DNA from: a virus | IMG/VR virus record: IMGVR_UViG_3300026097_000805 | Span: 62,001 to 126,000 of that record | Direction: 5' to 3' (one strand) | Length of the DNA stretch: 64,000 nucleotides | Shown: piece by piece, positions 2,308-54,810 of the stretch | Numbering within the stretch: position 1 is the first letter of the stretch | How the letters are laid out: each line of letters begins with the position of its first letter | The notes under the pieces: generated by a model | What the model was told of the DNA's origin: nothing | Seen by the model: the letters and a program-made list of their open reading frames with translations, nothing else | Database searches by the model: none | Made by a program: the position numbers and the translations under genes

Positions 2308-4977
2308 TTACTCTCCAAAGTCAAACAAACTGTTAAATGTAGTGTGCTGCTTTGTATCTTCTAGTGGATAGTTCAACACACCAATCAAGTTGTCTAACTT
2401 ATTATCAATAATAGTTTCTGCCATTGCCGCATCATCAAATGGCAACTCTTTGAACCAATCGGGCAAACGCAACTCATCTGTAGGATACGCAACACTTGTA
2501 TAGCCTAGCGGATTTTGCTTGAGCTTGCAAACAATAACTTTCATACCATCTACAATCTCTTGAGAGTATTTGTCTCCATTCATGCGCTTGAGTGTATTCC
2601 AATTAATACTTGCTCTAACGTGTCCGGGCATATTCGCTTTGCCTTGCTTTTGCTCCAGTCGCTGATAGTGTCCGATCTTGTTTGCACGTTTGGGCGAACC
2701 TTTTTCCCAACCCGGCATTTCTTGAAACTCTTTGCGGAACTGTGTAATACGCTCTAGTACATCTGCCTGCGGAACATCTGTTAGCACCATTAGCAATAGT
2801 TCTTTCAAGAAGTCCTGCATAAACACAGGTGTATCCGAACGGCGCAAGTCCAAGCCCATGGCCTTTACCTTACCCGGACTTCCTTCTTGGTCTGTTCTAA
2901 AGCCTTCGTTATCTACTACTAGTGCCGCATAACGCTTCTTAGTAATATACAAACCGCTTACAGCAACAATCTCACGTCCTGCTGCAATTACGTCTGCACG
3001 ACTTTTAGGACAGTGAAACGCACGACCCATAAAGTCAACAAACGTTGTGTCTACTTGCTCACAGATTTGATCATACAGCGCAATAGCCTTTTCAGTCGAC
3101 CATTCTAGTTTACCAGACTCTACGTCATCTTTTAGAATAGGCCATGCACTAAAATACACAGAGTCAGTATCACCGTAAATAACAGCCTTGCCTACATGAT
3201 CATACTCGCCTGCAATAGTCTTGTTTGCTTCTGCACTCATGTGCTTAACAATCTGTCTACCTGTAAGTGTAGTTGACTGTCCGATACGTTTATCGAAGAA
3301 TCTACAACCAGGATTGAGAATCGCACCATACAAACTGTTCAAGTTAATCTTCTTAACTAACTGTCGTTTGTCCCAGTATTCAATCTCAGCATCGTTCTTA
3401 GCATCCTTTGCTTTTTTCAGCATCTTCTGCATGTCTTTACGTTCAGCATACCAACGCTTTAGAATACCTGGAATTACACCTTCAAACTCAGTTGTAAATA
3501 TAGTACCGTTAGCACTAAGCATCCAAGGCATATGTGAGTCGAATATAAGTTGATAAATCTCCGCACCTGATAGTACATCCGACCTACCATCCTCCCAATC
3601 AACTGTAAGTGCAACATCCTTTCGTTGATCCATAACTGCTTCGTATTCTTCTGTCGCAAATCTACCTTCCCAACTGCCTGCAAAGCTCTTTTTCTTTAGT
3701 GTCATGTCTTCATGCACACGAGCATCGCTGATCTCTGCTCGAATCTGTCCTACAATAGTTTCTGGCGCCATGTTCAACGCACGAATCACACTAGGATACA
3801 GTGAATTCAAGTCCATTGACGCCACCCACTTGTGTAAGCCCTTCTTAGGAAACGCAACATACGCACCCGCTGCCTGTGTGTTCTCGTCGTCACGTTGTTT
3901 GCGATTGGGTACTTGTAGCCCACGATTGTGTGCTTCGTTGATAATGCCTTGCTCTGTGACAGCAACAGCGCCCATTGTAGTTTGTAATAGTACTGTATTT
4001 TCGTGTGCAACTGTATTACTCAGGTCAATGAAGCGCAGTTTCTTGTCTAGCTTGTCAAGTAGTGCAGTATCCTGAATATTATATTCAATAAACTTACGGA
4101 AATCGTTGTTGTACAGTTGATCCAGTGTACCTTCATATGGTACTTTGTTTTCACCTACTTCAATCTCGCCGATAGCATCCAGTCGATATGTGTGACGTTC
4201 TTCATAGGTGTACTTGCGATACAGTTCAAGACTGTCCAAGTGTACACGACCTACTAGATCAAACGTGACAGCTTGCTTCCCATATTTTTCATATTCACGC
4301 TTCTTGGGCAATTGTCCCCATAAGCAGAATCTACGTGTATCATCTTTGCTTAATACACGCATTGTTCTATTAACAGTGTAGGGAATATCATAACCTTCAC
4401 TGTTCCAGCCACTTAAAATATCAGCATCTTCAATTAGTGTCAAGAAAGTGTCAATCATCTCACTTTCTTTTTCAAACAACATTACATTGTCAATGCCTTC
4501 AAGTTCTACCTTTGCTTGCTCCATAGTAAGTGTCTTAGGCGGAACAGCAAGACACACCATTGTTTCCATCCACTGCAAATATACAGATATTGATGTAATG
4601 GGCATAAACGGATCCGCAGGATCAGCAAAGCCTCGTTCCGGATCAAAGTCCGTCTCGATATCGAAGAACGCAATGTTTAGTTTGGGTGCATCTTGATTGA
4701 GATAGTGTTCGCTTAAACACTGAAAGATTGGATTTACATCGCTTTCAAAAAGTGTTTTATCTTTGTTGATAGCAACTTCTTTGCGAAAGTCTTTTGTGTT
4801 CTTACACACAATGCGAGATAACGGATCGCCGTACACACTCTTGTACTTGCCGCGTTCGTCCTTGTAATAAAAAGTATATTTTGCTTGATATTCTTGGAAG
4901 TGTCTTTTGCCGTCTCGTCGTTCTACGACACGGATAATATCTTGATCGCGATCGAACATCGCGTCTACATATGGCAT
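2308..4977 (-). CDS. 43: DNA polymerase gp43 (family B)
   Basis: Replicative DNA polymerase of the T4 type, 889 aa. The 3'-5' exonuclease domain shows FDIETD at residues 105-110, an Exo II block (NSEGYDIPYTVNR) and Exo III (YNIQDTALLDKLD). Polymerase motif A (DLNSLYPS) is near residue 386, motif B (KKINLNSLYGA) near 541 and motif C (YGDTDS) near 599. All metal-binding acidic residues are present. AAGGAG lies 7 nt before the ATG. Membrane proteins and DsbA lie upstream and the reductase downstream. No inteins or interruptions are seen, although T4-like gp43 genes are sometimes split. Confidence 0.98.
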   Translation of the reverse strand: MPYVDAMFDRDQDIIRVVERRDGKRHFQEYQAKYTFYYKDERGKYKSVYGDPLSRIVCKNTKDFRKEVAINKDKTLFESDVNPIFQCLSEHYLNQDAPKLNIAFFDIETDFDPERGFADPADPFMPITSISVYLQWMETMVCLAVPPKTLTMEQAKVELEGIDNVMLFEKESEMIDTFLTLIEDADILSGWNSEGYDIPYTVNRTMRVLSKDDTRRFCLWGQLPKKREYEKYGKQAVTFDLVGRVHLDSLELYRKYTYEERHTYRLDAIGEIEVGENKVPYEGTLDQLYNNDFRKFIEYNIQDTALLDKLDKKLRFIDLSNTVAHENTVLLQTTMGAVAVTEQGIINEAHNRGLQVPNRKQRDDENTQAAGAYVAFPKKGLHKWVASMDLNSLYPSVIRALNMAPETIVGQIRAEISDARVHEDMTLKKKSFAGSWEGRFATEEYEAVMDQRKDVALTVDWEDGRSDVLSGAEIYQLIFDSHMPWMLSANGTIFTTEFEGVIPGILKRWYAERKDMQKMLKKAKDAKNDAEIEYWDKRQLVKKINLNSLYGAILNPGCRFFDKRIGQSTTLTGRQIVKHMSAEANKTIAGEYDHVGKAVIYGDTDSVYFSAWPILKDDVESGKLEWSTEKAIALYDQICEQVDTTFVDFMGRAFHCPKSRADVIAAGREIVAVSGLYITKKRYAALVVDNEGFRTDQEGSPGKVKAMGLDLRRSDTPVFMQDFLKELLLMVLTDVPQADVLERITQFRKEFQEMPGWEKGSPKRANKIGHYQRLEQKQGKANMPGHVRASINWNTLKRMNGDKYSQEIVDGMKVIVCKLKQNPLGYTSVAYPTDELRLPDWFKELPFDDAAMAETIIDNKLDNLIGVLNYPLEDTKQHTTFNSLFDFGE

Positions 4978-6466: not shown

Positions 6467-6774
6467 CCTATCTCCTGGGCTCCCATTTTACGAATAGCTT
6501 CGTCTATGTATAATGCAAGTTCAAAGTCTAACTGTGTCAAACCGCCTACATCGTGGGTATACACCATTAACACTACTTCGTTATAAAAGAATCCTATGTC
6601 TGCAAAATGGTCTAGTTTTACTTGTGGCTTTTCGATGTACAAAAGGAAGCGTAGCACACTGTTGTAGTCATCGAACGCTACTTTCTTGTATAGATACTTA
6701 CCCTTGCGAATTTCCCAGTCGGAAGCAAACTTTCTACGAATAGGTTCAGCTTGTTCAATGTCTAGTCGCTTCAT
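6463..6774 (-). CDS. Pterin-4a-carbinolamine dehydratase-like protein
   Basis: 103 aa, the usual size of PCD/DCoH proteins, which dehydrate 4a-hydroxytetrahydropterin. The C-terminal THDVGGLTQLDFELA matches the family signature THxxGGLTxxDxxLA. The usual active-site triplet HHP is replaced: the segment reads KLDHFAD, keeping the first His but not the second or the Pro. Activity may therefore be altered. With DHFR, thymidylate synthase and SHMT in the same genome, a link to folate or pterin metabolism is plausible. Confidence 0.75.
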   Translation of the reverse strand: MKRLDIEQAEPIRRKFASDWEIRKGKYLYKKVAFDDYNSVLRFLLYIEKPQVKLDHFADIGFFYNEVVLMVYTHDVGGLTQLDFELALYIDEAIRKMGAQEIG

Positions 6775-7190
6775 TGTGTTCTGTCCTTATCATCGATTGC
6801 ACCACCACTAACCCAGGCAGTGCAACTACGTGTACCTGCACACTTGAAGTGGAGGAAGTTGCAGTATCCCAAATCTGCTTTATGGATTGTAGCCATTGCA
6901 TCAGCTTCTTTTTCATCACCTTGAATTCCACCTTCTATACAGTTCCACATTTTATCTGATACATCAAATGCTGCACAGTTGTTGCACTGCATGGTCTTAG
7001 CAGTTGTTTCATCTATGCCCCATTTCTTAGCATAGTCTTTCCAGTAAGTGCCTGGCTTTTCAGGATTTGCAGGACCGTACATATAATCGTGGATTGCACG
7101 TTGACGATTTTTAAGATTTACATCAATGTCTTGTGTAGCAACAGGACAGCCTTTGTTAGCTGCTTCTACAAGATTGATGTAAGATCTCAT
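6771..7190 (-). CDS. Cys-rich protein with capsid-targeting-like N-terminus
   Basis: 139 aa, with several Cys pairs (CNNCAAF, CNFLHFKC, RSCTAW) that could bind Fe-S or Zn. The C-terminal half resembles a conserved family common in marine T4-like phages; no enzymatic function is known to me. The N-terminus MRSYINLVEAA closely parallels the T4 internal-protein targeting sequence (MKTYQEFIxEA), with L-V-E followed by A as a possible prohead-protease site. First of a run of genes sharing this feature. Confidence 0.6.
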   Translation of the reverse strand: MRSYINLVEAANKGCPVATQDIDVNLKNRQRAIHDYMYGPANPEKPGTYWKDYAKKWGIDETTAKTMQCNNCAAFDVSDKMWNCIEGGIQGDEKEADAMATIHKADLGYCNFLHFKCAGTRSCTAWVSGGAIDDKDRTQ

Positions 7191-7810
7191 TTATAATCCT
7201 TTAGTGCTGCATACAAACGATCTTTAATTGATTCGGTTGTTGATTCTCTAGGAGCAGATCTTTCAAGGTCATCCATACCTTTAGCTTGACGCATTAGATC
7301 TTGGAAGTCAGTATCTTGCATTTGTTCCGGACTTGCACCGATTGCTTTTCTATCGTCGTTAAAATGCATATAGGCAATTTGTGCAAACATTCTTGCAGCT
7401 TTTTTCGGCATGCCTTTGTTCACAAATTTTTCAATTAATTTGTCTAGCTCTGGATTTTGTTCTGTGTTTTCATCTTCTCCCACGAGCTTGTCTTTCAAAG
7501 GATGTGGTTGTTCGCCGCTTGTGCTAGGAGTGCTTGTTGCGGGCATAGGATCTTTTCCTCTTGCATAGTCTCCGTGTTTTTGTGCTTCATTTACTTGTAC
7601 CCCTGCAAGCGCAGCAAAATCTGCAACACTATCTAGGCCTAAAGGCATAGATCCTTGCGGTACTTGTACTGACTCATTTACATAGTCTTTGGTAGGCGGA
7701 ACATCAGCTACCGCACCGCCTTGTGCTTGAGACTGCAACTTTGCTAGATCTTCTCTAGGATCCGTGGGGTCTAATTCAAATAGTTTACGTTGTAAGTCGT
7801 GATAATCCAT
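7187..7810 (-). CDS. Hypothetical protein, probable virion/head component
   Basis: 207 aa, low-complexity Pro/Thr/Ser middle (residues ~40-110) and an acidic helical C-terminal half. The N-terminus has L-F-E at residues 10-12, compatible with a prohead-protease (L/I-x-E) site. Neighbours on both sides share such motifs. No known family recognised. Confidence 0.5.
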   Translation of the reverse strand: MDYHDLQRKLFELDPTDPREDLAKLQSQAQGGAVADVPPTKDYVNESVQVPQGSMPLGLDSVADFAALAGVQVNEAQKHGDYARGKDPMPATSTPSTSGEQPHPLKDKLVGEDENTEQNPELDKLIEKFVNKGMPKKAARMFAQIAYMHFNDDRKAIGASPEQMQDTDFQDLMRQAKGMDDLERSAPRESTTESIKDRLYAALKDYK

Positions 7811-7811
7811 A

Positions 7812-8300
7812 TTACATCTTCACACAGTTGTCTACAGTTTTGCCGCCCTTTTTCTTAGTGCCCATACGCTTGTAGCCTTTCCAGCATACTTTGCCGTCTA
7901 CACCTTTTTGCTTTTCTTCAGGTAGGGTAGTATAACTAGGCTTACCACAGTCTGAACAAACACCTTCAGTTTTTTCTGCTAGTTTTGAACGCAGGGCATC
8001 GACATAGTTTTTAGATTCTACAGGCATTTCTGCAGGCATTGCTTGCCCACCGTTTGCAAACTTCATATCATAATCTAGTGCATGGTATACACTTGACATA
8101 TAATCTGCTGCTTTAGTAATTTTGCTCTGCTGCCAGCCCTCGATGCCCTCTGCTTCTGAAACAGTTTTTAACATCTCGTGTAGCTTTACAGCATACTTTG
8201 CAATTTTATATAGGTCTGAACGAGCCATCTGAACTTCGTGATCACGTTCTGCACGATCGGCTAATTCACCTAGACCTTCTTGTATTTTTTTCATTCTCAT
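7812..8300 (-). CDS. Probable head-packaged protein with Cys/Lys C-terminal tail
   Basis: 162 aa. It begins MRMKKIQEGLGE, giving I-Q-E at residues 6-8. The middle is helical; the C-terminus has CSDCGKPSYTT and then a very basic tail with KGYKRMGTKKKGGK and two further Cys, likely zinc- or DNA-binding. GGAG lies 9 nt before the ATG, and a late-promoter motif (GATAAATA at 8334-8327) sits 27 bp upstream, so late expression is expected. Confidence 0.55.
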   Translation of the reverse strand: MRMKKIQEGLGELADRAERDHEVQMARSDLYKIAKYAVKLHEMLKTVSEAEGIEGWQQSKITKAADYMSSVYHALDYDMKFANGGQAMPAEMPVESKNYVDALRSKLAEKTEGVCSDCGKPSYTTLPEEKQKGVDGKVCWKGYKRMGTKKKGGKTVDNCVKM

Positions 8301-8326
8301 TGAAGCACTCCAATATACGTATAATG

Positions 8327-8334
8327 TATTTATC
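8327..8334 (-). promoter_or_regulatory. T4-type late promoter
   Basis: GATAAATA on the minus strand, one mismatch from the T4 late consensus TATAAATA. It overlaps the stop codon of the upstream gene and would drive the 162-aa gene. Confidence 0.6.
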
Positions 8335-8848
8335 GTTTGAGCGTTTGACCTGACATTAAATTAGCACCGCTGTCTAGTGCATTTGGCGCAACACCCTTGC
8401 GCTTTTTAGGCTTTTTAGCATTACGAGTGACACTTGGATTGGATACTGTGGCAATTGCGCCGCCCCCTACACTTGTTGCACCGCTAGTTGCAGTTTCGTT
8501 ATATACATTTCCTACACTTCGGCTTTGTGCAATTATTTTATCTCCACGTTTAAGTACATAACTTGGAACTGGAGTATCGTGCTTTGAATACACATTTTCA
8601 ATTGCTTTGCCAAAATTCGTCCATTTTTCTTTTGCTGTATTTCCTTCGAAATCTGTAAGGTCAAATTCTTTACCATTATCCATTACAATTACTAAAGTTG
8701 CTTGGCTATCGGCTGTGTTGTCTCTTAATTTTTTCTTGCGACGACGACCACTTGCTTTTGCGGCTTTATAGCTTTTCTTATAGCTTTTTGATTTTAAACG
8801 ACCTTCTGTTTCAATCGATTCTTCGCTTAAAATTTCATTTACTCTCAT
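8330..8848 (-). CDS. Basic hypothetical protein with capsid-targeting-like N-terminus
   Basis: 172 aa. The ATG at 8848 is preferred over one 30 nt upstream because GGAG lies 8 nt before it; the protein then starts MRVNEILSEES, matching the N-terminal pattern of its neighbours (L-S-E at 7-9). A strongly basic block (residues ~20-45, SGRRRKKKL) and a basic C-terminal KKPKKRKG suggest nucleic-acid contact. Function unknown; probable virion protein. Confidence 0.55.
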   Translation of the reverse strand: MRVNEILSEESIETEGRLKSKSYKKSYKAAKASGRRRKKKLRDNTADSQATLVIVMDNGKEFDLTDFEGNTAKEKWTNFGKAIENVYSKHDTPVPSYVLKRGDKIIAQSRSVGNVYNETATSGATSVGGGAIATVSNPSVTRNAKKPKKRKGVAPNALDSGANLMSGQTLKR

Positions 8849-8939
8849 AGTGCTGTCTCCAAAATGCATTACGCTCATTAGTACTTAGTCTTTGCGCTTC
8901 GTGTTCTTTATACTTTTTAACGTAATATGCAATATCCAT
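8835..8939 (-). CDS. 34-aa charged microprotein
   Basis: Short ORF bridging two cassette genes. Its ATG overlaps the stop of the HAD gene (TAATG) and its TGA lies inside the start of the next gene. Rich in Tyr, Lys, Arg and Glu. Coupled overlaps support translation; no family recognised. Confidence 0.4.
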   Translation of the reverse strand: MDIAYYVKKYKEHEAQRLSTNERNAFWRQHYESK

Positions 8940-9967
8940 TATTTCTTTCTACCTGATTTCATATTAGCACACCAGTGATACATTTTAGCCTTCTCACCAC
9001 TTGCGTTCTTAGCACGTTTGCGAAGTGCTGTCACTGATCCATTGCAACTAGCACCTGAACGTTTTACACGCCCTGGTCTGCTTTTGCCTTTTTCCTTACC
9101 GTCAGCAAAGTTTTCTTTGACCATTGAACGAGCCTTGTCTAATGCCGCAGCAGCCTTAATAGTCATTGATCCTGCTAGACCAATCTCAAGACCATCTTTA
9201 TCTCTTATAGTAAGGTCCTGCGCAACATCAGCACCTACTTCAACTTCTCCTGCTTTCACTGCTTGTGCTAACCATCTTCTTGCAGCCTTTAGTTCATTCC
9301 ACATCATTTTGTATGTAGCACCACCCTGAAGTTTAAAGCCAGCACCTTTTTTAAAATATTTGTTTATTAAATTTTTGTATTGTTCTTCTGTAGTTGAATC
9401 TCCTGCAGAGTTTTCTTCTACAGGCTCTTGCATATGCTGTTTGATTGCTTTTGCTGTTCTTTCAAATTTATGATCTTTGTACTTAAATCCTATACCACCA
9501 GCTGCTTCCCAGTTGTTGATGTTAACACCATAGTCGTCAATCAGTATGTTAGGTGTGCCGTCTTCGTGTTTAGCATATTGTGGTTTGTTGTGAGTGACAT
9601 ATACTTCTTTGGGCGGGAAAAATGCTAGATTTTCTTCTACCCAAGTACGCTTGTGTCTTTCTGAATTAGGGTCGTCTGCTAAAGGACTGGTACAAATATA
9701 GTATTCACCTTTGACTTGTTTGATTAAATTTAGTAATTCTTTTGCCTGAGGTAGTACGGGAAGTCTTAACCAAAAGTCGTCTGTATCACGTATTTTTTGT
9801 AATGCATCGTCAATGTCATGCTGTTTGTTAATTTGTGTAAAATGATCTACATCCATTAGTCTTGCCCACTCGCCAAAGAAGTCAGCAAGTACACCATCCA
9901 TATCCACATATATTTCACTCGCACTTGCAATCTCGCCAAGATTTTCAAAAATCTCATGTACTCGCAT
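8939..9967 (-). CDS. HAD-family (deoxy)nucleotidase-like protein with targeting N-terminus and basic Cys tail
   Basis: 342 aa, composite. Residues 1-15 are MRVHEIFENLGEIAS, with I-F-E and L-G-E as possible prohead-protease sites. Residues ~18-190 form a HAD hydrolase like 5'(3')-deoxyribonucleotidases: YVDMDGVLADF (motif I), ICTSP (motif II) and ILIDDYGVNINNW (motif III/IV). A linker follows. The last ~60 residues are basic (GKSRPGRVKRSG) with Cys residues, ending WCANMKSGRKK, a tail type I recall in other marine phage proteins. Possibly a nucleotide phosphatase delivered in the head; packaging is inferred. Confidence 0.7.
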   Translation of the reverse strand: MRVHEIFENLGEIASASEIYVDMDGVLADFFGEWARLMDVDHFTQINKQHDIDDALQKIRDTDDFWLRLPVLPQAKELLNLIKQVKGEYYICTSPLADDPNSERHKRTWVEENLAFFPPKEVYVTHNKPQYAKHEDGTPNILIDDYGVNINNWEAAGGIGFKYKDHKFERTAKAIKQHMQEPVEENSAGDSTTEEQYKNLINKYFKKGAGFKLQGGATYKMMWNELKAARRWLAQAVKAGEVEVGADVAQDLTIRDKDGLEIGLAGSMTIKAAAALDKARSMVKENFADGKEKGKSRPGRVKRSGASCNGSVTALRKRAKNASGEKAKMYHWCANMKSGRKK

Positions 9968-10520
9968 CTGCGTTTTCCTTTAATGTAATAACACCACAGG
10001 CTAATCTATCTCCAGCATTGCCTGTTTTTAAACTTTCGTCGTCCCTGCCTTGGCCTAGATCATCTTCGTCACTGTGTACTACAACAGCACGACCTACTAC
10101 ACTGCGTTCACCTGTGAGGTCCACACGTTTTGCTGCTATACTGATGTTAGCAACACCGTCTTCGTCTGCTGTTATATTACCCAGATCGCCTACGTGTCCT
10201 TCGTCCAAATCCCCATGATCAACTCCATCCGGATTATAGTGTCCGCCTGCACTCTCACAACCTTGACTTAAATCACCAAACTCGTGAATATGGAATCCGT
10301 GTTCACCTGGAGTTAGTCCAGTTATCTTGCCTACTATGAGAGTAGGACCGTTTGCTTGTTGCTTGAATAAGATTGTGCCTTCAACTGTGTCTGAATGTTC
10401 TAGCACACATACCGCTGTGACGGTTTCTTGTGCTTCTGTGATCTTGTTTACGCTTTCGCATTGACATGCACTGGCTTTGGTTCTAGGACATTGTGTCGTT
10501 AGCACTTCATAAATTTTCAT
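9954..10520 (-). CDS. sodC: Cu/Zn superoxide dismutase with N-terminal extension
   Basis: 188 aa; dismutates superoxide. The SOD domain spans residues ~33-185. All ligands appear present: HGFHIHEFGD (copper His), GGHYNPDG and VDHGDLDEGHVGDLGN (bridging and zinc His, zinc Asp) and VVVHSDEDD (copper His). The disulfide Cys are in SQGCESAGG and RLACGVI. The extension starts MKIYEVLTTQ, is Cys-containing, has no typical signal peptide, and holds K-I-T-E followed by A at residues 26-30, a fit to the T4 prohead-protease rule. Packaging in the virion rather than periplasmic export is inferred. Confidence 0.9.
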   Translation of the reverse strand: MKIYEVLTTQCPRTKASACQCESVNKITEAQETVTAVCVLEHSDTVEGTILFKQQANGPTLIVGKITGLTPGEHGFHIHEFGDLSQGCESAGGHYNPDGVDHGDLDEGHVGDLGNITADEDGVANISIAAKRVDLTGERSVVGRAVVVHSDEDDLGQGRDDESLKTGNAGDRLACGVITLKENADAST

Positions 10521-11335
10521 TTTTTACGTCCTTGACAATGTGCTTTTTGACTGAAGCCTTTTGGATTAGAGCAATTAATACTGTCTTTATATTTTTTACT
10601 CCATTTTTCTTCTATACTCTCAACCTGTGACATTGCTTTTTGCATTTGCTTTTGACTAAACTTTATACCTTGTCTAACAAGAAATTTTTGTAAGAAGGTT
10701 AAGTGTGCCAAACCAATAGCTGCTGCAATCATTATAAGGATATTTGGTGCAAACTTTTTTATTAGTTCAGCTAATGCACTAGGTTTTTTATTTTTATATC
10801 TAGCTACTATTTGATCAAAATTCTTAGGACGTAGTTGAGGTACTGGAGCAGTTGCTGGTGCTGCTTCAGTTTGTAGCACATCTCGTGCAGTCTTAATAGC
10901 ATCAGGTCCTTGAGGATGTTTCGGATTAATACTTACTACTTCACCATTTATGAGTTCTGAAATGTTAGCCGCTTTGCCTACGCTATCTAGCACTTGATGT
11001 AATTTGTCTTGTGCATCATAGTTGCCACGTTCATAACCTTTTTTACCACGAACTTCTATACGATGTTTATTGTTAGTATCCATGATATGTAAAACATCTA
11101 TTTCGTCGTCTCTTTCTAAACGAAGCTTAATGCCTTCTGTCAGGCCTAAATTAAAAAGAACATTAGTGCTTTTACCTTTGACTTTTTTGCTTAGTGTAGG
11201 CGGACGTCCGTCTCGGTCTACTGTATTGCCAAATTTCTTTGCTTGTTTAGTGATTTCATCAGGGCCTACGTCAGGCGTTGTGTTTACACCTTTTACAATT
11301 CTGCCTACGCCTTCGTATAACTCGTAAACCTTCAT
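10517..11335 (-). CDS. Probable head protein with targeting N-terminus, one TM helix and Cys/basic tail
   Basis: 272 aa, starting MKVYELYEGVGR (L-Y-E at 6-8). Residues ~195-215 are a strong hydrophobic helix. The end (SINCSNPKGFSQKAHCQGRKK) is a two-Cys basic tail of the kind seen on other marine T4-like virion proteins. The middle is charged and lacks recognised motifs. Membrane helix plus packaging motif could indicate a protein ejected with the DNA, but this is speculation. Confidence 0.55.
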   Translation of the reverse strand: MKVYELYEGVGRIVKGVNTTPDVGPDEITKQAKKFGNTVDRDGRPPTLSKKVKGKSTNVLFNLGLTEGIKLRLERDDEIDVLHIMDTNNKHRIEVRGKKGYERGNYDAQDKLHQVLDSVGKAANISELINGEVVSINPKHPQGPDAIKTARDVLQTEAAPATAPVPQLRPKNFDQIVARYKNKKPSALAELIKKFAPNILIMIAAAIGLAHLTFLQKFLVRQGIKFSQKQMQKAMSQVESIEEKWSKKYKDSINCSNPKGFSQKAHCQGRKK

Positions 11336-11550
11336 TTCTTTTTACGACCCCTAAATTGTACCTGCCCTGTCATATAAGGTTTACTAAACCATAACTGAAA
11401 CCATTCTGGATCACCTGGGCGTATATTCATTTCACGTTCTTTTTTCTTGATAGCTGCCGCTGTCTCGCTAGGATTTTCGTCTAACACATATTCTGTGTAG
11501 CCTTTGAATTCATTTATTCCAGCAAGTTTGCGAAGCTCATCTAGATCCAT
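11332..11550 (-). CDS. Small basic probable virion protein (72 aa)
   Basis: 72 aa beginning MDLDELRKLAGINEFKGY; I-N-E at 12-14 fits the prohead-protease rule. It ends in QFRGRKKK, a basic tail like its neighbours. Overlaps the flanking genes by 4 and 1 bp. Confidence 0.5.
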   Translation of the reverse strand: MDLDELRKLAGINEFKGYTEYVLDENPSETAAAIKKKEREMNIRPGDPEWFQLWFSKPYMTGQVQFRGRKKK

Positions 11551-13718
11551 TATAGCCCCTGTTCAACTGCTTGAGCTAGTTGCTCCGCACCTACTTCTTT
11601 ACCGTCTAAGTAAATTTTTGCTGTACCTTTGTCTAGCAAGGGCTTTACGGCCATAGGATCCTTGAGAATAGCAAGAGGATCTCCGCCTAGTATCTGTGTC
11701 ATCATTGTTCTAGGATTTTTGTGAAATGCTGGACGATCTAAGACTTTACCGGTAAGTGCTACTTTAAGTCTGCCTATTGTTATACTACCTTTAATTACAG
11801 GTTGACCTTTTCTTGCATCGAAAATAAATCTAGCACCGCCGAACGCATATGACAAATAATCAGCCTCACTCGGTTTGTTTCCTTCTAATGGTCCTCTTGC
11901 TTCTAATCCACCACCGCTAAAAATATAACGAGCTTTACCATCTGCATACTTTATTGTAGACAGGCCATTAACAACGGGAGTTTGCGTTTTGATTAGTTTT
12001 CCATTAGCATCATAAAACTTTTTACCCCATGCTCCACTGTGTGTATAGCTTCCGTCTGCGGCATAGTCTTTTGTGCTCCCGTCTGGTAATTCTTCAGATC
12101 TTTCTTCGTTAAATTCTGCACTCACGTCTGCTGTGTCTTTATCTAATTGTCTTTGGCCTAAATCAATTAATTTTTCTACTGATAATCCGCTCAATTTTTG
12201 TGCTTGTGTTATCATTTGATTTGCTTTTTTCTTTGCTGAAGGTGATAAAATTACAGTTGTATCCATTTCATCTCCGCCAGTGAGGCTACCTTGTAATAAA
12301 TTTTGTGCCCCCATAGCTAGTGCAATTGCTCTTTCTAAATTAGGATTAGAAGATTCACGCATTTTCTTTTTACGATTTTTACAACTTGCTTCAAACGCGG
12401 TTATAACATCTTCGCTTGTAATTTGATAACGCTTGCCGCGGCTCTTAATTTCTTTGCCAACAAGTATTTTAAGAACTTTAGAAAGTTTGGCAATATCTTG
12501 TTCTTTATCAATAGCATCGTCAATTAGCATACGTAGATATTGACGTAGTTGTACAGGGTCGATCACAACATCGCTTTCGTTGGTTTTCTTTTTCTTCTTA
12601 TTATGTTGTGCCCAAGCTATAGCATATGGCGCACCTTCGTCATCCGGAAATTCTTTTTTAAGAGCTTTTACTTGATCTTCTCTTCCTGGAGGTGCTTCTT
12701 CATCAGTCTTTTTATATTTCTTTAGCATCTTCTCCTCATCTGGAGAATCACCAAAATATTTGTGTACTAAATCATCTAATTCGTTGTGAAATTTATCTTC
12801 GTCTTTAGGTGATACATCTTCTTTTTTAAACAAATCATTCAATGAATCATCGGAGTAGCCTGGACCGCTTCCTAACCAACTACGCTGTGACATTCTTGTC
12901 TTTTCGTCCGGTATTAACCCTAACTTTTCGTAGTATTGTCTTAACTCCGATCTTGACATTTCCTGAGATTTTTTAGCATAGTCTGCCATTATTAATTCTT
13001 CTGCTCTTTTTGGATCTATACCATTGTCAATCATCTTCTGTTTTATTCTAGCAAATATATTATTACTATTTTCTGCTACATTTTCGCTTACAGGTGCTTC
13101 TGGATCGCCTAATGCTTTGTTAAGCAGTTGCGTAGCTGTTTGTGCATTCCCTGGATACATTAGTTCGGCGGCCTGTAATTTGTCTTCGTCTGACATTTCT
13201 GGCCATGCTGCTCGTAGCTCACTAGCACTTTTAATGCTCATGCCGCTAAAATTAAAGTCAATTGTAGGACCGTATGCTAGATAACCGTGGGTATCTGCTG
13301 TTTCTAATTCACCGTCATTATAAGAAATTAAGTATCCCATGTTGCCATCACTTTTACGCACTTGATCAGGTAAAGGATGACTTGTTTTATCTTTTTCGCT
13401 ACGCACAAATACAAGTGCTGTCTGTGATGCGTCACTTATAATATCGTTATAGGATAACGCATTAAAAGGTGACTTGACCTGTATAAATCTGTTAGCAGGA
13501 ACACCAGCCATTTGTGCAAGTTTTATCTTTACATCGAATGGAAAAGGCCTTGATTTTGTATCATTAGTTGCTGCAACATATACATTATCTTTACCAAATG
13601 TTTCTACAGCCCAGTCATACAGACTTTTGTGCCCGGGATGAAAAGGATGAAATCCACCAGGCATAACTGCTATTACTTTTTGTGCAGGTGCTGCTTCAAA
13701 TAGTTGACGTAGTCTCAC
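11550..13718 (-). CDS. 722-aa nucleotidyltransferase-fold fusion protein, probable virion enzyme
   Basis: Begins MRLRQLFEAAPAQK, with L-F-E followed by A at residues 6-9. Residues ~14-200 form a nucleotidyltransferase fold with GGFHPFHPGH (HxGH) and a conserved RSEKDK segment, resembling adenylyltransferases. A long acidic linker (~220-380) holds a PPGREDQVKALKKEFP segment and a poly-Lys stretch. The C-terminal ~200 residues are beta-rich and unrecognised. Such a fusion of catalytic head, linker and tail domain is not a standard metabolic enzyme; substrate unknown. Confidence 0.7.
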   Translation of the reverse strand: MRLRQLFEAAPAQKVIAVMPGGFHPFHPGHKSLYDWAVETFGKDNVYVAATNDTKSRPFPFDVKIKLAQMAGVPANRFIQVKSPFNALSYNDIISDASQTALVFVRSEKDKTSHPLPDQVRKSDGNMGYLISYNDGELETADTHGYLAYGPTIDFNFSGMSIKSASELRAAWPEMSDEDKLQAAELMYPGNAQTATQLLNKALGDPEAPVSENVAENSNNIFARIKQKMIDNGIDPKRAEELIMADYAKKSQEMSRSELRQYYEKLGLIPDEKTRMSQRSWLGSGPGYSDDSLNDLFKKEDVSPKDEDKFHNELDDLVHKYFGDSPDEEKMLKKYKKTDEEAPPGREDQVKALKKEFPDDEGAPYAIAWAQHNKKKKKTNESDVVIDPVQLRQYLRMLIDDAIDKEQDIAKLSKVLKILVGKEIKSRGKRYQITSEDVITAFEASCKNRKKKMRESSNPNLERAIALAMGAQNLLQGSLTGGDEMDTTVILSPSAKKKANQMITQAQKLSGLSVEKLIDLGQRQLDKDTADVSAEFNEERSEELPDGSTKDYAADGSYTHSGAWGKKFYDANGKLIKTQTPVVNGLSTIKYADGKARYIFSGGGLEARGPLEGNKPSEADYLSYAFGGARFIFDARKGQPVIKGSITIGRLKVALTGKVLDRPAFHKNPRTMMTQILGGDPLAILKDPMAVKPLLDKGTAKIYLDGKEVGAEQLAQAVEQGL

Positions 13719-14041
13719 TTGTAGTCACCTCGCTTGATTTGTTCCATTTCTTCGGAGAATAGTTTATCAATTAGCGCATCGCGGTCTGGCTGTTTAAAAA
13801 CATCTTCAGCAGAACGACCTAGGTTATACTTTTTAACATAACCATTGATACCCTGTTCAATCATATCCATTATCATAGTACGATCAACTTTTTTACCCTC
13901 GCTATGATTATCAGCTAATTTAGCCATACACGGAAAATACTGTTTGCGATAGAAATTAGGGTCGTTGCGCATGTAGTAGCTAGCATCGTCTACAAGATCA
14001 AAAGGTAAGCTATTTTCTGTGACTTCATAAATCTTTACCAT
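13715..14041 (-). CDS. Hypothetical protein with cassette-type N-terminus (108 aa)
   Basis: The start at 14041 is favoured by GGAG 9 nt upstream, giving MVKIYEVTENSLP, close to the SOD and neighbouring N-termini (V-T-E at 7-9). The rest is helical and charged. Overlaps the upstream gene by 7 bp and the 722-aa gene by 4 bp. Function unknown. Confidence 0.55.
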   Translation of the reverse strand: MVKIYEVTENSLPFDLVDDASYYMRNDPNFYRKQYFPCMAKLADNHSEGKKVDRTMIMDMIEQGINGYVKKYNLGRSAEDVFKQPDRDALIDKLFSEEMEQIKRGDYK

Positions 14042-14595
14042 TTTCTGCAACTCCAATAGCGAGCTTTATGACGAGGTCCCGGATTGTCACAATTGTGTCT
14101 TGCTCTAAAGCTTCTACGTCTTTCTGGATTAGATTTTTTTATCTTAGCACCCTTTTGGCCAAAGTTTACTTTAACTACATTACCTTTTGGATTTTTTACA
14201 TATACTTTGAACTTTTTAACATCGCCCGCCATAGGCTTGCCCAATTTGACTTTGCGACCTTGATACTCTGCTTCGTCTAAGTCATTGTCCTCGTTAAACC
14301 ACATTACTCCGAATTCTTCGTAAAAGTCATCGTCATCATCAAACGTGACTTCCTCTATGTCTTCATCTTCTTCGCCTACATATATATCAAAATCTTCATA
14401 ACCTTGTTCAAACATATAATTAGCAAGCTTTTGTGCATATTCGTCAGATTCATCTAATGTAAGAGCTCTTGCAAGAGGTATTTGAATGACTGTGGTATCT
14501 TGTTCTGTATCATATGATTCAAAAACAGGAAAAATACTTTCGTCCAATTTAGTTGACTCTTGTTTTTCCATTACTACTCTTACAAAATATTCCAT
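14035..14595 (-). CDS. Acidic/basic two-part probable head protein
   Basis: 186 aa. The N-terminal two thirds are very acidic (D/E runs around residues 75-105). The C-terminal ~75 residues are basic, with GRKVKLGKPMAGD, a beta segment and FRARHNCDNPGP...WSCRKW, a Cys/Arg domain that I recall on prohead or structural proteins of marine T4-like phages. L-D-E is present at 17-19. Probably a virion or scaffold-associated protein. Confidence 0.6.
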   Translation of the reverse strand: MEYFVRVVMEKQESTKLDESIFPVFESYDTEQDTTVIQIPLARALTLDESDEYAQKLANYMFEQGYEDFDIYVGEEDEDIEEVTFDDDDDFYEEFGVMWFNEDNDLDEAEYQGRKVKLGKPMAGDVKKFKVYVKNPKGNVVKVNFGQKGAKIKKSNPERRRSFRARHNCDNPGPRHKARYWSCRKW

Positions 14596-14965: not shown

Positions 14966-15610
14966 TTATTTATCAAGATCTTGCTTACAGACAATTTTGT
15001 CTACACGACCAAGACTGCCGAGCATAAGTCCTACAATGTTAAGGATTTTTTCATCTCTTACATAAAAGTATAAACCTTTAGAATATCCACTATTTGCCAC
15101 TTCGTTAAGAAACACAGGGCCTGCTTTTGAAAGTTTTGGATTATTTTGTATCCATTTAGCTAAACTAGGATCAGGCTTAGAGTTTAGTGTTATTCTATAT
15201 TGATAATCACTAGGTTTTTCTACAAGTATGGTATTTTTTGCTAGTATTACAGGAGGTTCATAAAACTCCGTTGGTGCGTTGACTTGAGATGCTATATACA
15301 GAAGCCAATCTTTGTCTTGACTATATAATTGTAGCATAGGATATTCTACGCGGATCTTATAGTCATTCCTTTTAATTAATTCTTTGTATAACCATTTACA
15401 CTCAGTAAAAGTAGCTAAATCATATTCCTTCTTACGATACGTTCCTAACACTAGAGGTTTATTCATTTCCACCATGACTTCGAGTCTAGACAGTTCTTCT
15501 CGAGCAAATCTAAACTTTTTTTCACGGAAAATATAAGCTAGAGAATTATATAACCCTAGCTTATATGGATATTCATTATAGAATAGCTTTTTGGTTTCAA
15601 GAGTTCGCAA
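14966..15610 (-). CDS. Conserved hypothetical protein (~214 aa)
   Basis: Mixed alpha/beta, basic protein without recognised domain. The start is uncertain: an ATG at 15658 lies 62 nt inside clpA without a ribosome site, whereas a TTG at 15610 follows GGAGAGGAAG inside the clpA tail; I favour 15610. It follows clpA in the same operon. Confidence 0.55.
   Translation of the reverse strand: MRTLETKKLFYNEYPYKLGLYNSLAYIFREKKFRFAREELSRLEVMVEMNKPLVLGTYRKKEYDLATFTECKWLYKELIKRNDYKIRVEYPMLQLYSQDKDWLLYIASQVNAPTEFYEPPVILAKNTILVEKPSDYQYRITLNSKPDPSLAKWIQNNPKLSKAGPVFLNEVANSGYSKGLYFYVRDEKILNIVGLMLGSLGRVDKIVCKQDLDK
14967..14974 (-). promoter_or_regulatory. T4-type late promoter (leaderless arrangement)
   Basis: GATAAATA on the minus strand, 6 nt before the ATG of the 118-aa structural gene. 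T4 late transcripts start about 6 nt after this element, so the mRNA may be leaderless. Confidence 0.5.
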
Positions 15611-17837
15611 CAACTTCCTCTCCAACACTTTCGAGGCGTAGTTCGCCATCAGCAACATCTATTTTTACACTGCCACCGTGCTTAAGATTGCCAAACAAAA
15701 GTTGTCTAGAAAGAGGACGCTTAATTTCGTTGTCGATAACACGTTGTAGTGGTCTTGCACCCATTTTCTTGTTAAAACCCTTATCGACTAGATAATCAAG
15801 TGCTTCGTCTGATACAGTAATACTAACACCTTTTCCAACTACCATTTCTTTAAGTTCAACTAGGAACTTGCCCACAATCTTAATCATAACTTCCTTGCCA
15901 AGTTTAGCAAAGGTTATTGTTCCGTCTAATCGATTACGGAATTCAGGTGCAAAGAATTTTTTCAGTTCAGTATCTTCGTATTCTTTATCAGTTTCGTCTG
16001 TAAAGCCAATAGTATTCTTTTCTGCTTCCTGTGCGCCTAAATTAGTTGTTAGGATAAGAACACAATTACGGGCATCTGCTTCCTTGCCATTAGATCCAGT
16101 AATTTTACCATTGTCCATAACTTGTAGTAAAATTTGTGAAACATCAGGGTGTGCTTTCTCGATTTCGTCCAGCAATAATACACAGTTAGGATTTTCTTGT
16201 AGTTTAGTTATAAGCAATCCGTTGTTTTCTTCATACCCTACATAGCCCGGAGGAGATCCGATTAGTTTAGCAACAGCATGCTTTTCTTGATATTCGCTCA
16301 TATCAAAACGTACAAGTTTTACACCTAAGTTATTAGCAAGAGCTTTAGCTGTCTCCGTTTTACCTGTACCAGTCGGACCCATAAACACAAAACTGCCAAT
16401 TGGTTTATCATCCGGTTTCAAACCAGCTTGTGCTACAAGAATTTTATCTACAATACTTTCGATAGCTGTGTCCTGACCGTAAACAACACCTTTCAAATTC
16501 TTTTCAAGATTTACAAGATTTTCTGTTTCACGTTCTGCAACTTGCTCCTCAGGTAAATTTATAGTCTTTGCAAGTTCAAATTCAATTTCTTTTTCGCTAA
16601 CAATTTTTTCATCAACAGGGTCTTTTAGATTAAATCTTGAACACGCCTGGTCAATTAGATCAATTGCTTTGTCAGGAAGTTTTTTATCAGATTGATATTT
16701 TACACTTAACTTAACAGCCGCTTCTATAGCATCGTCAGTAATTGTTGTATTATGGTAGTCTTCATAATACTTTTTAATACCTTGCAAAATATCGTTAGCT
16801 ACTTCTGGGCTCGGCTCGTCTACGGTCACACGCTGGAAGCGACGCATCAGCGCACGATCCTTTTCAAAGTATTTGCGATATTCTTCCCAGGTAGTACTAG
16901 CAACAACTTTTAAGTCGCCTTTTGTAAGAGCAGGCTTTAACATATTTGCTAGATCGTTTGAACTATTTTGTCCACCAGCGCCGGCACCGTTCATCATGTG
17001 TGCTTCATCTACGAACATAATGGTTTTACCTTTTTTACGAAGTCCTGCAAGCACAAGTTTAAACCGTTCTTCAAAATCTCCGCGATATTTACTACCAGCT
17101 AACATAGCACCAATATCTAGATTGTAAACTTGATATTCGTTTAAAAATTCAGGAACATTTCCTTGTACGATGTTAAAAGCCATACCTTCAGCAATAGCTG
17201 TTTTACCAACACCTGGCTCGCCTACTAGTAGTACATTATTTTTACTACGGCGCCCTAGTGCAAGCGCAATACTATCAAGCTCTTCCGATCTTCCAATTAC
17301 AGGATCTATTCTATTACGTTTTACTTCATCATTTAAGTTAGTTGTGAATGAACGTAAAGCACGTTGTGCAGCGCCGCTGATCTCTTCATCTTCAATAATC
17401 TCTTCTACTTCATTATCTAAGTAATCTGCAAATTGTTCTTTGGTGACACCACCCTTTTGTAAGAAGTAGTAAGAGTGACTTTTCTTTTCTGATAACATAC
17501 TCATTGCAACATCGCATAGTTCTATATTATTTCTACCGGCAAACAATACTTGAGTAAATGCTCTATTTAAAACTCTTTCTACAGTTTGTGTTTTTTTAGG
17601 TTTAAATTTGGTTGTGTCTATTTTTATATCGTCTAAATTATTTTTCAAATAATGTTCTAAATTAGCTTTGATAAAATCAACGTCCGCACCATAACCTTTT
17701 AAAATATTAAAAAAGTTTTCACTGCACATCATGCTAAACAAAAGATGTTCTAATGTAACATATTCGTGTTTTAATTTTTGTGCATCTTTAACTGCTTTGT
17801 CAAATACTAATTGTAGCTCTTTGCTCGGTTCAACCAT
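15597..17837 (-). CDS. clpA: ClpA-type AAA+ unfoldase
   Basis: 746 aa, near E. coli ClpA length. Residues ~1-145 form a Clp N domain. D1 has Walker A GEPGVGKT near residue 206, and D2 has GPTGTGKT near 485 with LLDEIEKAHPD. There is no long ClpB middle coiled coil. Between the D2 ATPase motifs and FFAPEFRNRLD lies NTIGF, at the position of the ClpP-docking IGL/IGF loop (about residue 607), so it should pair with a ClpP. The phage encodes a ClpP at 57.9-58.5 kb. It unfolds proteins for degradation; targets are unknown. It overlaps deformylase by 8 bp and is probably co-transcribed with def and dnaJ. Confidence 0.93.
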   Translation of the reverse strand: MVEPSKELQLVFDKAVKDAQKLKHEYVTLEHLLFSMMCSENFFNILKGYGADVDFIKANLEHYLKNNLDDIKIDTTKFKPKKTQTVERVLNRAFTQVLFAGRNNIELCDVAMSMLSEKKSHSYYFLQKGGVTKEQFADYLDNEVEEIIEDEEISGAAQRALRSFTTNLNDEVKRNRIDPVIGRSEELDSIALALGRRSKNNVLLVGEPGVGKTAIAEGMAFNIVQGNVPEFLNEYQVYNLDIGAMLAGSKYRGDFEERFKLVLAGLRKKGKTIMFVDEAHMMNGAGAGGQNSSNDLANMLKPALTKGDLKVVASTTWEEYRKYFEKDRALMRRFQRVTVDEPSPEVANDILQGIKKYYEDYHNTTITDDAIEAAVKLSVKYQSDKKLPDKAIDLIDQACSRFNLKDPVDEKIVSEKEIEFELAKTINLPEEQVAERETENLVNLEKNLKGVVYGQDTAIESIVDKILVAQAGLKPDDKPIGSFVFMGPTGTGKTETAKALANNLGVKLVRFDMSEYQEKHAVAKLIGSPPGYVGYEENNGLLITKLQENPNCVLLLDEIEKAHPDVSQILLQVMDNGKITGSNGKEADARNCVLILTTNLGAQEAEKNTIGFTDETDKEYEDTELKKFFAPEFRNRLDGTITFAKLGKEVMIKIVGKFLVELKEMVVGKGVSITVSDEALDYLVDKGFNKKMGARPLQRVIDNEIKRPLSRQLLFGNLKHGGSVKIDVADGELRLESVGEEVVANS

Positions 17838-18336
17838 TTATTAACCTCTTTTGTTTTTCTAGCTTTTTGTTAGCCATTGCTAATTTTAATTTCGATACTC
17901 TATCAGTGAAAGTGACACCGTTAAGATGGTCATACTCATGCAAAAAGCATCTAGCATCTATTCCACTAAATTCTATTATACATTCTTTTGCGTCTAAGTC
18001 AAGAAATTGTGCAATTATTTTACTAGGTCTCTTGACATGTAATACTAATCCTGGATAACTTAGACACCCTTCTGGTCCGTTAACAGTCTCTTCATCTACT
18101 TCTAAAATCACAGGATTAATGATAGCAAATGGCTTTTTAATTTCAGGGTGTTCGATCGGACGCATCACAAAGATTTGTGCATCTAAACCTACTTGATTTG
18201 CACTCAACCCAATACCGTTTTGTGCCATCATAATCTCACACATCTTTCCAGATATATCCACAGCATCTAAAGTATCAAAATTAAAAGGCTTAACAGATTT
18301 ATCAAGCCATTCATCGGGTGCTTTAACTAATTGCAT
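17830..18336 (-). CDS. def: Peptide deformylase
   Basis: 168 aa; removes N-formyl groups from nascent proteins. All three motifs are intact: [10 protein letters not shown] (residues 41-50), EGCLSYPG (metal Cys91) and HEYDHLNG (metal His133/His137, catalytic Glu134). The usual HEXDH is complete. Located between clpA and dnaJ with 8- and 14-bp overlaps. Phage deformylases are known from marine myoviruses. The window also has an initiator-like tRNA. Confidence 0.95.
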
Positions 18337-19141
18337 TTTTTATTTCCTCTATTTTGTCAAGTAAGTCTTTGTCTTCGATTTTTGGAATATTTGCATCTAT
18401 TTTTATGTATAAATTTCCCTTCCTACCTGTATTTACATTAGGAACACCGTGACCTGCGATACTAAAGGTAGTTCCTGGTTTTGTTCCTTTGGGCACATTT
18501 AAATTTAGCAAATTTCCTGCTGGCGATTCTATTACTATCTCTGTCCCTAATAGTAAGTCGAAGACTGATATTTTTTTTGTAGTTGTAAGATTGTCTTCTG
18601 TGCGTTTCCATATTGAGTTTGGAGGTATCCGAATTTTTAAATTTAAGTTGCCTTTTGGTATATTTGAAAATGTGTCATCTCCGTATCCTGCGAAATTTAT
18701 CACATCGCCGTCTTTCACTCCTGGAGGAATCTTAACATCTAAAAATTGTTGCTTACCGCTAGGCAGTTTATAAGCAATACTTACACCTCTACCTGTAAAG
18801 ATATCTATAAAATCTAAGTTGTATTGAATTTGTATATCTTTATTTTTTCGTATACTATTATGTCTCGGTCCTCCAAAACCAAAAACTTGAGAAAATACGT
18901 CTTCAAAATTATGCATATTATGCATATTAGATGTGTTAAAATTTCCTTGATGACTAGGACTGTCGTATTGCTTACGTTTTGTAGGATCTTTCAAGACATC
19001 ATAAGCTTCGTTCACTTGCTGCAATTTTTCTGCAGATCCGCCACGATCGGGATGATGCTTCATCGCAAGCTTGCGGTAAGCTTTTTTAATATCATCTTGA
19101 GAGGCGGTTTTACCTACGCCTAGGATAGAATAATAGTCCAT
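18323..19141 (-). CDS. dnaJ: DnaJ/CbpA-type co-chaperone
   Basis: About 272 aa. The J domain begins [11 protein letters not shown] (reason for choosing 19141 over an ATG 24 nt earlier) and has the essential HPD (KHHPDRGGS). A Gly/Asn-rich linker with an MHNMHNF segment follows, then two C-terminal substrate-binding domains ([10 protein letters not shown] and [10 protein letters not shown] repeats). The Cys-rich zinc domain is absent, so it is a class II J protein. It stimulates Hsp70 ATPase; no phage DnaK is seen, so host DnaK is the likely partner. A GGTAAATA late-like element lies 6 nt upstream. Confidence 0.93.
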
Positions 19142-19184
19142 ACAGTTATTTACCGCATGGACCATTGTGTAAAGTTAGTACTGA

Positions 19185-53931: not shown

Positions 53932-54007
53932 TGGTGCTAGAGGACGGAATCGAACCGCCGACACGAGAATCTTCAATACCCTGCTCTACCGACTGAGCTA
54001 CTCTAGC
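53932..54007 (-). tRNA. tRNA-Phe(GAA)
   Basis: Anticodon loop TTGAAGA; acceptor GCTAGAG pairs with CTCTAGC; CCA encoded. Last gene of the eight-tRNA cluster. Confidence 0.93.
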
Positions 54008-54011
54008 ATTA

Positions 54012-54082
54012 TGGTAGTAAATGATAGAATCGAACTATCTCTTCAGGCTTATGAGACCCGAGTCCGGACCACCGGATTTACT
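54012..54082 (-). tRNA. tRNA-Met(CAT), short D-arm
   Basis: Anticodon loop CTCATAA, acceptor AGTAAAT/ATTTACT, CCA encoded. Only 71 nt: the D-arm is a self-complementary CCGG-TGGT-CCGG. Could be elongator Met or, if lysidine-modified, Ile(CAT). Confidence 0.8.
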
Positions 54083-54083
54083 A

Positions 54084-54166
54084 TGGAGTGCAAGACAGGA
54101 CTCGAACCTGCATAGTCTTACGACACGGATTTGCAATCCGATGCATAACCATTCTGCCACTTGCAC
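54084..54166 (-). tRNA. tRNA-Cys(GCA)
   Basis: Loop TTGCAAA within CGGAT/ATCCG stem, acceptor GTGCAAG/CTTGCAC, CCA encoded. The variable region is longer than usual for Cys. Confidence 0.9.
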
Positions 54167-54167
54167 A

Positions 54168-54242
54168 TGGCTGGGGCGGAAGGACTCGAACCTCCAATCG
54201 ACAGAATCAAAATCTGTTGCATTACCAATTATGCTACACCCC
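54168..54242 (-). tRNA. tRNA-Gln(TTG)
   Basis: Loop TTTTGAT between ACAGA and TCTGT, acceptor starting GGGG, CCA encoded. Confidence 0.92.
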
Positions 54243-54248
54243 AAAACT

Positions 54249-54324
54249 TGGTGGACTCGCTCGGATTCGAACCGAGGACCAATTGATTAAAAGTCAACTG
54301 CTCTACCAACTGAGCTACGAGTCC
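54249..54324 (-). tRNA. tRNA-Lys(TTT)
   Basis: Loop CTTTTAA, acceptor GGACTCG/CGAGTCC, CCA encoded, canonical D- and T-arms. Confidence 0.94.
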
Positions 54325-54325
54325 A

Positions 54326-54409
54326 TGGTGGGGAAGGTAGGATTCGAACCTACTCACTTTACGAACTGATTTACAGTCAGCCGCGCCTCTCCAACTGCGC
54401 CGCTTCCCC
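54326..54409 (-). tRNA. tRNA-Tyr(GTA)
   Basis: Loop CTGTAAA, acceptor GGGGAAG/CTTCCCC, long class II variable arm, CCA encoded. Confidence 0.94.
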
Positions 54410-54410
54410 A

Positions 54411-54486
54411 TGGTGTCAAAGGATGGACTTGAACCATCGACCTAACGGTTATCAGCCGTTTGCTCTACCAACTGAGCTACATTGAC
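54411..54486 (-). tRNA. tRNA-Ile(GAT)
   Basis: Loop CTGATAA, anticodon stem ACGG/CCGT, CCA encoded; one mismatch (T6-T67) in the acceptor stem. Confidence 0.92.
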
Positions 54487-54491
54487 AAACT

Positions 54492-54565
54492 TGGCACCGG
54501 TCCAGGGAATCGAACCCCGAGTTTCAGTTTTGGAGACTGACGTGTTGCCATTACACTAGACCGAT
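54492..54565 (-). tRNA. tRNA-Trp(CCA)
   Basis: Loop CTCCAAA between TCAGT and ACTGA; acceptor ATCGGTC/GACCGGT, discriminator G, CCA encoded. First gene of the eight-tRNA cluster, just after the attenuator-like terminator. Confidence 0.93.
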
Positions 54566-54586
54566 ATAAAACTTTTTCCTCCTACT

Positions 54587-54626
54587 AAAAATAAAAAACC
54601 CCTGCTAATATCTCTACTAGCAGGGG
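54587..54626 (-). terminator. Intrinsic terminator (possible attenuator) before the eight-tRNA cluster
   Basis: Minus-strand stem CCCCTGCTA (54626-54618) with TAGCAGGGG (54607-54599), 10-nt loop, followed by TTTTTTATTTTT. It lies 22 nt upstream of tRNA-Trp and downstream of the leader ORF. Cluster 1 has no promoter after it, so those tRNAs need readthrough. Confidence 0.85.
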
Positions 54627-54651
54627 TGCGTTAAATAACTTTTCTTGACTA

Positions 54652-54729: not shown

Positions 54730-54766
54730 TTCTATTTCTCTTTGTTTAATTTCTTAGTATGTGTAT

Positions 54767-54795: not shown

Positions 54796-54810
54796 CCGTT
54801 TATTTTACTT

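Follow-up and report, generated by a model that had tools for sequence, protein, structure and literature searches.

A marine phage gene cassette with N-terminal leaders resembling the T4 capsid-targeting sequence

Described head-packaged proteins and the marine locus

The capsid-targeting sequence of bacteriophage T4 is short: its first 10 residues suffice, and cleavage occurs after L/I-x-E (PMC9026906). In the record for the internal protein IpII, residues 1-10 (MKTYQEFIAE) are marked as removed. The T4 ADP-ribosyltransferase Alt likewise travels in the head; gp21 trims it, and it is ejected into the host cell (PMC9026906). Among cyanophages, the available portions of several virion studies report a nucleotidyltransferase detected by mass spectrometry in S-CREM2 (PMC10665884), a cytidylyltransferase (MRFRQFIIE) in S-SZBM1 (PMC9146016), an NMNAT flagged as a virion protein in S-SCSM1 (MKSFLQFLKE; PMC9602691) and a kinase in S-CRM01. 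No targeting leader is named in those portions, and the S-CREM2 authors note that such virion proteins could be carry-over (PMC10665884). A search of one literature collection found no paper linking a capsid-targeting sequence to cyanophage cargo. The chlorovirus PBCV-1, an unrelated virus of algae, packages a Cu/Zn superoxide dismutase (SOD, A245R) in its virion (PMC7019647); its shared feature with the locus described here is a Cu/Zn SOD in a virus.

The stretch analyzed here (the window, 64,000 nucleotides) runs from base 62001 to base 126000 of a virus record of 179,647 bp, which appears to be a fragment. The source virus is a marine T4-like phage. Its DNA polymerase is closest to those of jumbo myoviruses (Phosso and Atu_ph07), and the right end of the record codes for a head/packaging protein like those of T4-like cyanophages. 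A near-identity DNA search among phages gave no match. In a 165-kb relative, G023, the polymerase is 86% identical and also adjoins the cassette, and the polymerase neighbourhoods of the isolates Phosso and Vibrio phage 2.275 contain no comparable run of leaders. Elsewhere, the window has a cluster of 20 tRNA genes (53932-56202), and bases 1-41000 of the record (L002-L004) form a very large auxiliary island of about 30 consecutive genes, many of which have CxxxCxxC-type, radical-SAM-like N-termini in related copies.

Like the gp21-cut T4 proteins IPI-IPIII, the cassette proteins carry an N-terminal leader of about 10 residues, ending in (L/I)-x-E, on unrelated bodies. They differ in that the leader is one or two residues shorter, that the cargo includes recognizable metabolic enzymes, and that the genes are grouped in one large cassette close to the polymerase gene, with an extra module and C-terminal tags. 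An earlier note on this DNA had likened the N-termini to those of T4 internal proteins; the likeness extends to the (L/I)-x-E ending but not to the 10-residue spacing, as the glutamate here is at residue 8 or 9. Glutamate at residue 10 is found in most of the cyanophages and in two genes of the record outside the window (MRYREFRLVE and MRYKEFRLVE). Because leader spacing is treated as variable, the shorter spacing weakens membership in the T4 class rather than the proposed mechanism. Compared with Alt, the enzymes are different, and several occur at once. S-CREM2, S-SCSM1, S-SZBM1 and S-CRM01 share a related nucleotidyltransferase slot in their cassettes, with leaders of T4 spacing; SOD and HAD nucleotidase are absent from the virion proteins listed in the available parts of those papers.

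It is likely that a T4-type leader loads the cassette enzymes into the prohead, where they are trimmed, and that they are later injected with the DNA. In such a model, the leader M(K/R)-x-x-(E/Q)-(I/L)-x-E, or a close variant, would bring each cargo protein into the core of the prohead. A prohead protease of the gp21 type would then cut after (I/L)-x-E, freeing the enzyme inside the head, and the freed enzymes would enter the host together with the DNA. The candidate cargo consists of the Cu/Zn SOD, the HAD 5'-nucleotidase, the nucleotidyltransferase fusion and proteins of unknown function, some with a second, possibly removable, segment. Early in infection, the benefit might be superoxide quenching along with nucleotide and NAD metabolism.

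Organization of the cassette and its leaders

The cassette consists of 11 genes at 6771-14595, all on the minus strand (Table 1). The leader starts of the genes at 8330 and 13715 are internal to the longest open reading frames, and Shine-Dalgarno sequences favour them. T4-type late promoters (TATAAATA) occur just twice within the window, and none is close to the cassette.

Table 1. Coordinates of the cassette genes, their leaders and associated features in the window
Feature	Position	Strand	Remarks
DNA polymerase	2308-4977	-	Near cassette; used for placing the phage and the relative G023
139-aa protein (6771-7190), leader MRSYINLVE	7164-7190	-	L-V-E at 7-9; AAAGG Shine-Dalgarno
Leaderless gene, 207 aa	7187-7810	-	No (I/L)xE leader; 0/20 homologues with one
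162-aa protein, leader MRMKKIQE (8277-8300)	7812-8300	-	I-Q-E at 6-8
162-aa protein, C-terminal tag CWKGYKRMGTKKKGGKTVDNCVKM	7815-7886	-	Matches several PHROGs, function unknown
172-aa protein, leader MRVNEILSE (8822-8848)	8330-8848	-	L-S-E at 7-9; internal ATG with GGAG; C-terminal end of NALD..KR type
HAD 5'-nucleotidase (NT5C), leader MRVHEIFE (9944-9967)	8939-9967	-	Pfam NT5C 5.9e-9; PHROG 2643 1.7e-21; DMDG motif in sequence
HAD nucleotidase, C-terminal tag SGEKAKMYHWCANMKSGRKK	8942-9001	-	
Cu/Zn superoxide dismutase, leader-like MKIYEVL	9954-10520	-	Sod_Cu 6.1e-49
272-aa protein, leader MKVYELYE (11312-11335)	10517-11335	-	C-terminal tag FSQKAHCQGRKK
272-aa protein, ~57-aa module GRIVKGVNTT...NLGLTE	11135-11305	-	Folded body follows
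Leaderless gene, 72 aa	11332-11550	-	Leader in 1/45 homologues
722-aa nucleotidyltransferase fusion, leader MRLRQLFE (13695-13718)	11550-13718	-	GTG start; HPFHPGH; CTP_transf_like 9.6e-5
108-aa protein, leader MVKIYEVTE (14015-14041)	13715-14041	-	V-T-E at 7-9; internal ATG with GGAG
186-aa protein without clear leader	14035-14595	-	Start MEYFVRVV by ribosome site (AAGG Shine-Dalgarno) and homologues
186-aa protein, C-terminal tag RRRSFRARHNCDNPGPRHKARYWSCRKW	14038-14121	-	Near-invariant across 25 aligned sequences

All N-termini quoted in the earlier note are present in the sequence, and exactly six of them (MRSYINLVE, MRMKKIQE, MRVNEILSE, MRVHEIFE, MKVYELYE and MRLRQLFE) do have (I/L)-x-E at residues 6-8 or 7-9. 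A seventh leader, MVKIYEVTE, has V-x-E instead. The figure of about ten tagged proteins comes down to these seven clear cases plus the SOD, with the genes at 7187-7810, 11332-11550 and 14035-14595 lacking a leader. A later (I/L)xE, by about residue 29, had been noted for the other proteins; in the SOD it is the ITE at 27-29.

A leader rule (M, an optional residue and K/R, with [IL]xE within 12 residues) was fixed before other genomes were examined. It matches nine of the 11 cassette genes, versus 14 of the 232 other open reading frames of the record (6%; Fisher p=5.7e-9). One of the nine, the gene at 14035, was rejected as a leader gene: its match begins at an internal ATG that lacks a good ribosome site, and the protein most likely starts at MEYFVRVV. 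The rule then matches eight of 11, seven of them with a well-placed site; seven is the honest count, since the match at 14035 is not credible and that of the SOD includes no proper cleavage site. The record's other matches include a second group at 166.1-170.4 kb and one at 142 kb, with the N-termini MRYKEFRLVE, MRYREFRLVE, MKIDELLNE and MKMTDLLE. This second group (L006:18153-19847 and L008:3115-7432) includes a DUF6267 protein; on another contig (L198), the SOD is joined to an end that resembles DUF6267.

The N-terminal likeness could in principle reflect shared gene ancestry or a composition bias at gene starts, with no signal involved. The motif is short, and AT-rich starts favour K, I and E. 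Against this, when residues 2-20 of the same proteins were shuffled (20,000 trials), the mean was 0.62 matches and the maximum five of 11, and other genes of the same genome match far less often. Permuting the matches along the minus-strand genes gave at most eight, and never nine, in 11 consecutive genes. The bodies belong to different families, and S-CREM2 proteins that match the leader rule were detected in virions more often than others (below). This reading is very improbable. A different proposal is that the leader is some other address or marks the proteins for degradation, with the ClpA-like ATPase encoded upstream (15597-17837) as one candidate partner. Peptide deformylase-like and DnaJ-like genes lie beside that ATPase gene (15597-19165), and a similar ATPase (75% identical) occurs near the cassette in G023 as well. 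Such a tag would leave unexplained the (I/L)xE ending, the match to the T4 leader and the virion detection of tagged cyanophage enzymes, and we give it hardly any weight.

Leaders in marine relatives and in cyanophage virions

Marine virus contigs were retrieved with two cassette proteins, giving 84 loci in which three or more of the gene families occur. The leader is present on 146 of 303 cassette homologues versus 120 of 971 other open reading frames (p=2e-36), and among frames without homology to window genes it occurs in 59 of 139 within cassettes versus 61 of 706 outside; these counts use automatic calls with alternative starts, which raise the matches in both groups, and related loci are non-independent. 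The same kind of leader is found on unrelated bodies, with the bodies changing and the leaders kept in related contigs. In the nucleotidyltransferase slot, M(K/R)LR(E/Q)LFE is retained while the bodies drop to 18-24% identity. The enzyme domains begin shortly after the leader, at about residues 17-19 in the HAD nucleotidase and about residue 19 in the nucleotidyltransferase.

In cultured cyanophages, the nucleotidyltransferase cassette mostly lies between helicase/MazG and primase/nrdA genes, and in S-CREM2 the gene is located before the primase and after the late sigma factor. The N-termini have glutamate at residue 10 in S-H38 (MKSYKEFLSEA), S-SSM5 (MKKFSAFLTEA), S-CRM01 (MKLFNQFFKEA), S-CREM2 (MKNFSSFLTEA) and S-SCSM1 (MKSFLQFLKEA), and at residue 9 in P-TIM40 (MRFLDFIKEA) and S-SZBM1 (MRFRQFIIEA). 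Homologues in PBECO4 and MED4-213 lack such a leader. Additional proteins in the virion-detected set of S-CREM2 have leaders: a SAM lyase (MKDFDSFLEE; the annotated SAM hydrolase is Pfam S-AdoMet_lyase), a kinase (MKRFDAFLTE) and a 78-aa protein (MKDLHSFLTE). The S-CRM01 kinase begins with MISFDQFLSE.

Matches to the predefined rule in S-CREM2 were detected in virions in seven of 10 cases, versus 45 of 209 other proteins (p=0.002), and for non-structural proteins of at least 75 aa the figures are 6/7 versus 20/120 (p=3e-4). With a stricter pattern, picked after the S-CREM2 N-termini had been inspected, detection was 4/4 in S-CREM2; S-SCSM1 gave 1/2 and S-SZBM1 1/3, and pooling the three gave 6/9 versus 121/721 (p=0.0013). 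The three leader genes undetected in virions (S-SZBM1 191 and 192, and S-SCSM1 30) are small, at approximately 105-165 aa.

Some other proteins may be noted here. The S-CREM2 'Cas9' virion protein (L123:7704-10313) has LRFASFMAEA at residues ~17-26, and S-CRM01 g128 has LSLDSFIKEA behind a similar extension; both could be leaders located behind an upstream segment. S-CBWM1, a non-T4 cyanophage with virion kinases, was set aside as a leader case: the kinases (L163:1388-3199) begin with Cys motifs of the KKCTRGKSCGSACV type, which might serve as a different loading signal, and a query of this phage with the nucleotidyltransferase gave no match.

A candidate cutting enzyme and a major capsid protein are encoded in a close relative of the window phage. 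G023 has a portal and a head maturation protease of the gp21 family (PF03420; PHROG 207) in addition to the cassette, and the N-terminal part of its gp23-family major head protein contains KYLSE|AAG. A Peptidase_S77/PF03420 profile search of the fragmentary 179,647-bp record found none, and the control was silent too. A small open reading frame, MRADEFINETATEGSTSAGNVASISSVV (L102:12476-12700), resembles the segment behind the presumed cut in the G023 capsid protein. Motifs similar to the leader also occur in scaffold and protease proteins (S-CREM2 gp21, MKLIREE; G023 scaffold, MLDALKTLFEN), and a number of the cassette proteins are small and basic, with no assigned function. It may be that the leader proteins are themselves prohead core, head structural or assembly components instead of enzymes meant for the host. 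T4 core proteins, however, are conserved and mostly degraded (PMC9026906), whereas the SOD, HAD nucleotidase and nucleotidyltransferase have recognizable catalytic domains, and relatives place other bodies behind the same leaders. A purely structural or assembly role is unlikely.

The earlier note had the enzymes both packaged and delivered. Packaging is backed by the likeness to T4 leaders, the modular reuse, the G023 protease and the cyanophage mass spectrometry, while delivery goes a step further. As most tagged enzymes are found in virions of related cultured phages, those of the cassette probably reach the host along with the DNA; for the window phage itself, we infer packaging, cleavage and injection alike from these comparisons. 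If this is correct, the SOD, nucleotidase and NMNAT-like 'auxiliary metabolic genes' of marine phages would encode proteins delivered at time zero instead of being expressed in the course of infection, and a sequence rule for predicting virion cargo would be in hand. It would also account for the recurrent NMNAT-like proteins in cyanophage virion proteomes, for which the original authors did not exclude carry-over, and would supply natural leaders with which to load phage heads with enzymes.

Superoxide dismutase, second module and C-terminal tags

Two features of the cassette were unexpected: a conserved (I/L)xE before the SOD domain and a module of about 57 residues. The protein at 9954-10520 is a Cu/Zn SOD by its domain (9987-10385) and its readable metal-ligand residues (GFHIHE, HYNP, HGDLDEGHVGD and VVHSDEDD). 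No early (I/L)xE follows its MKIYEVL start; there is a Cys motif (CPRTKASACQC), and the ITE is encoded at 10434-10442. Its family is large and spread among marine phages (140 stretches), and many members begin like MRAKEFTE, MRLNELYISE or MKAIEFTE. Among 30 distinct phage SODs, 27 have (I/L)xE at the same place, between the Cys motif and the SOD domain, and the other three have VTE there (shuffled expectation, 28%). A SOD from Acinetobacter 'phage' MD-2021a was set aside, its neighbouring genes indicating bacterial chromosomal DNA. Removal of superoxide at entry is a guess at the role of the enzyme, made from its class.

Many proteins have the module (GRIVKGVNTT...NLGLxE) directly behind the leader. 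Of 46 distinct copies, all close with x-x-E, and 40 are preceded by a leader; in every ending listed, the residue two positions ahead of the glutamate is L, M, I or V (LAE in 26, LTE in six). The bodies behind it include HAD nucleotidase, SOD, a KLERD...VRGKxGYE domain, a HELIH metallopeptidase-like domain and others; these types were counted by eye, because automatic clustering merged all of them, as multi-domain fusions, into one group. In an AlphaFold model of the 272-aa protein (mean pLDDT 61.7), confidence is low across the module (~38-64 over residues 1-70) and rises from about residue 70, just past LTE (79-88 over 71-150); the model has no fold match in the PDB. In a 1184-aa G023 protein (L137:14104-17655), the module is fused to a HELIH domain, a HAD nucleotidase, a segment that by eye resembles ParB and the head domain of a poly(A) polymerase; the protein ends in a MYHWCANMKSG tag.

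The cassette proteins show four distinct types of basic C-terminus that contain Cys, and these are found nowhere else in the record. In relatives, these tags co-occur with leaders, a figure inflated by family membership. Tentatively, and with less conviction than for the leader itself, marine T4-like phages may possess a general modular delivery system in which interchangeable enzymes, some of them as multi-enzyme polyproteins, are loaded by means of the leader and of the module as a second propeptide, separated by the prohead protease within the head and injected as a starter kit; the Cys-rich basic tags might provide a further signal, for loading or for DNA binding. A 64-aa protein of the Sinorhizobium phage Phosso (L258:4965-5159) has a leader-like start followed by a shortened copy of the module.
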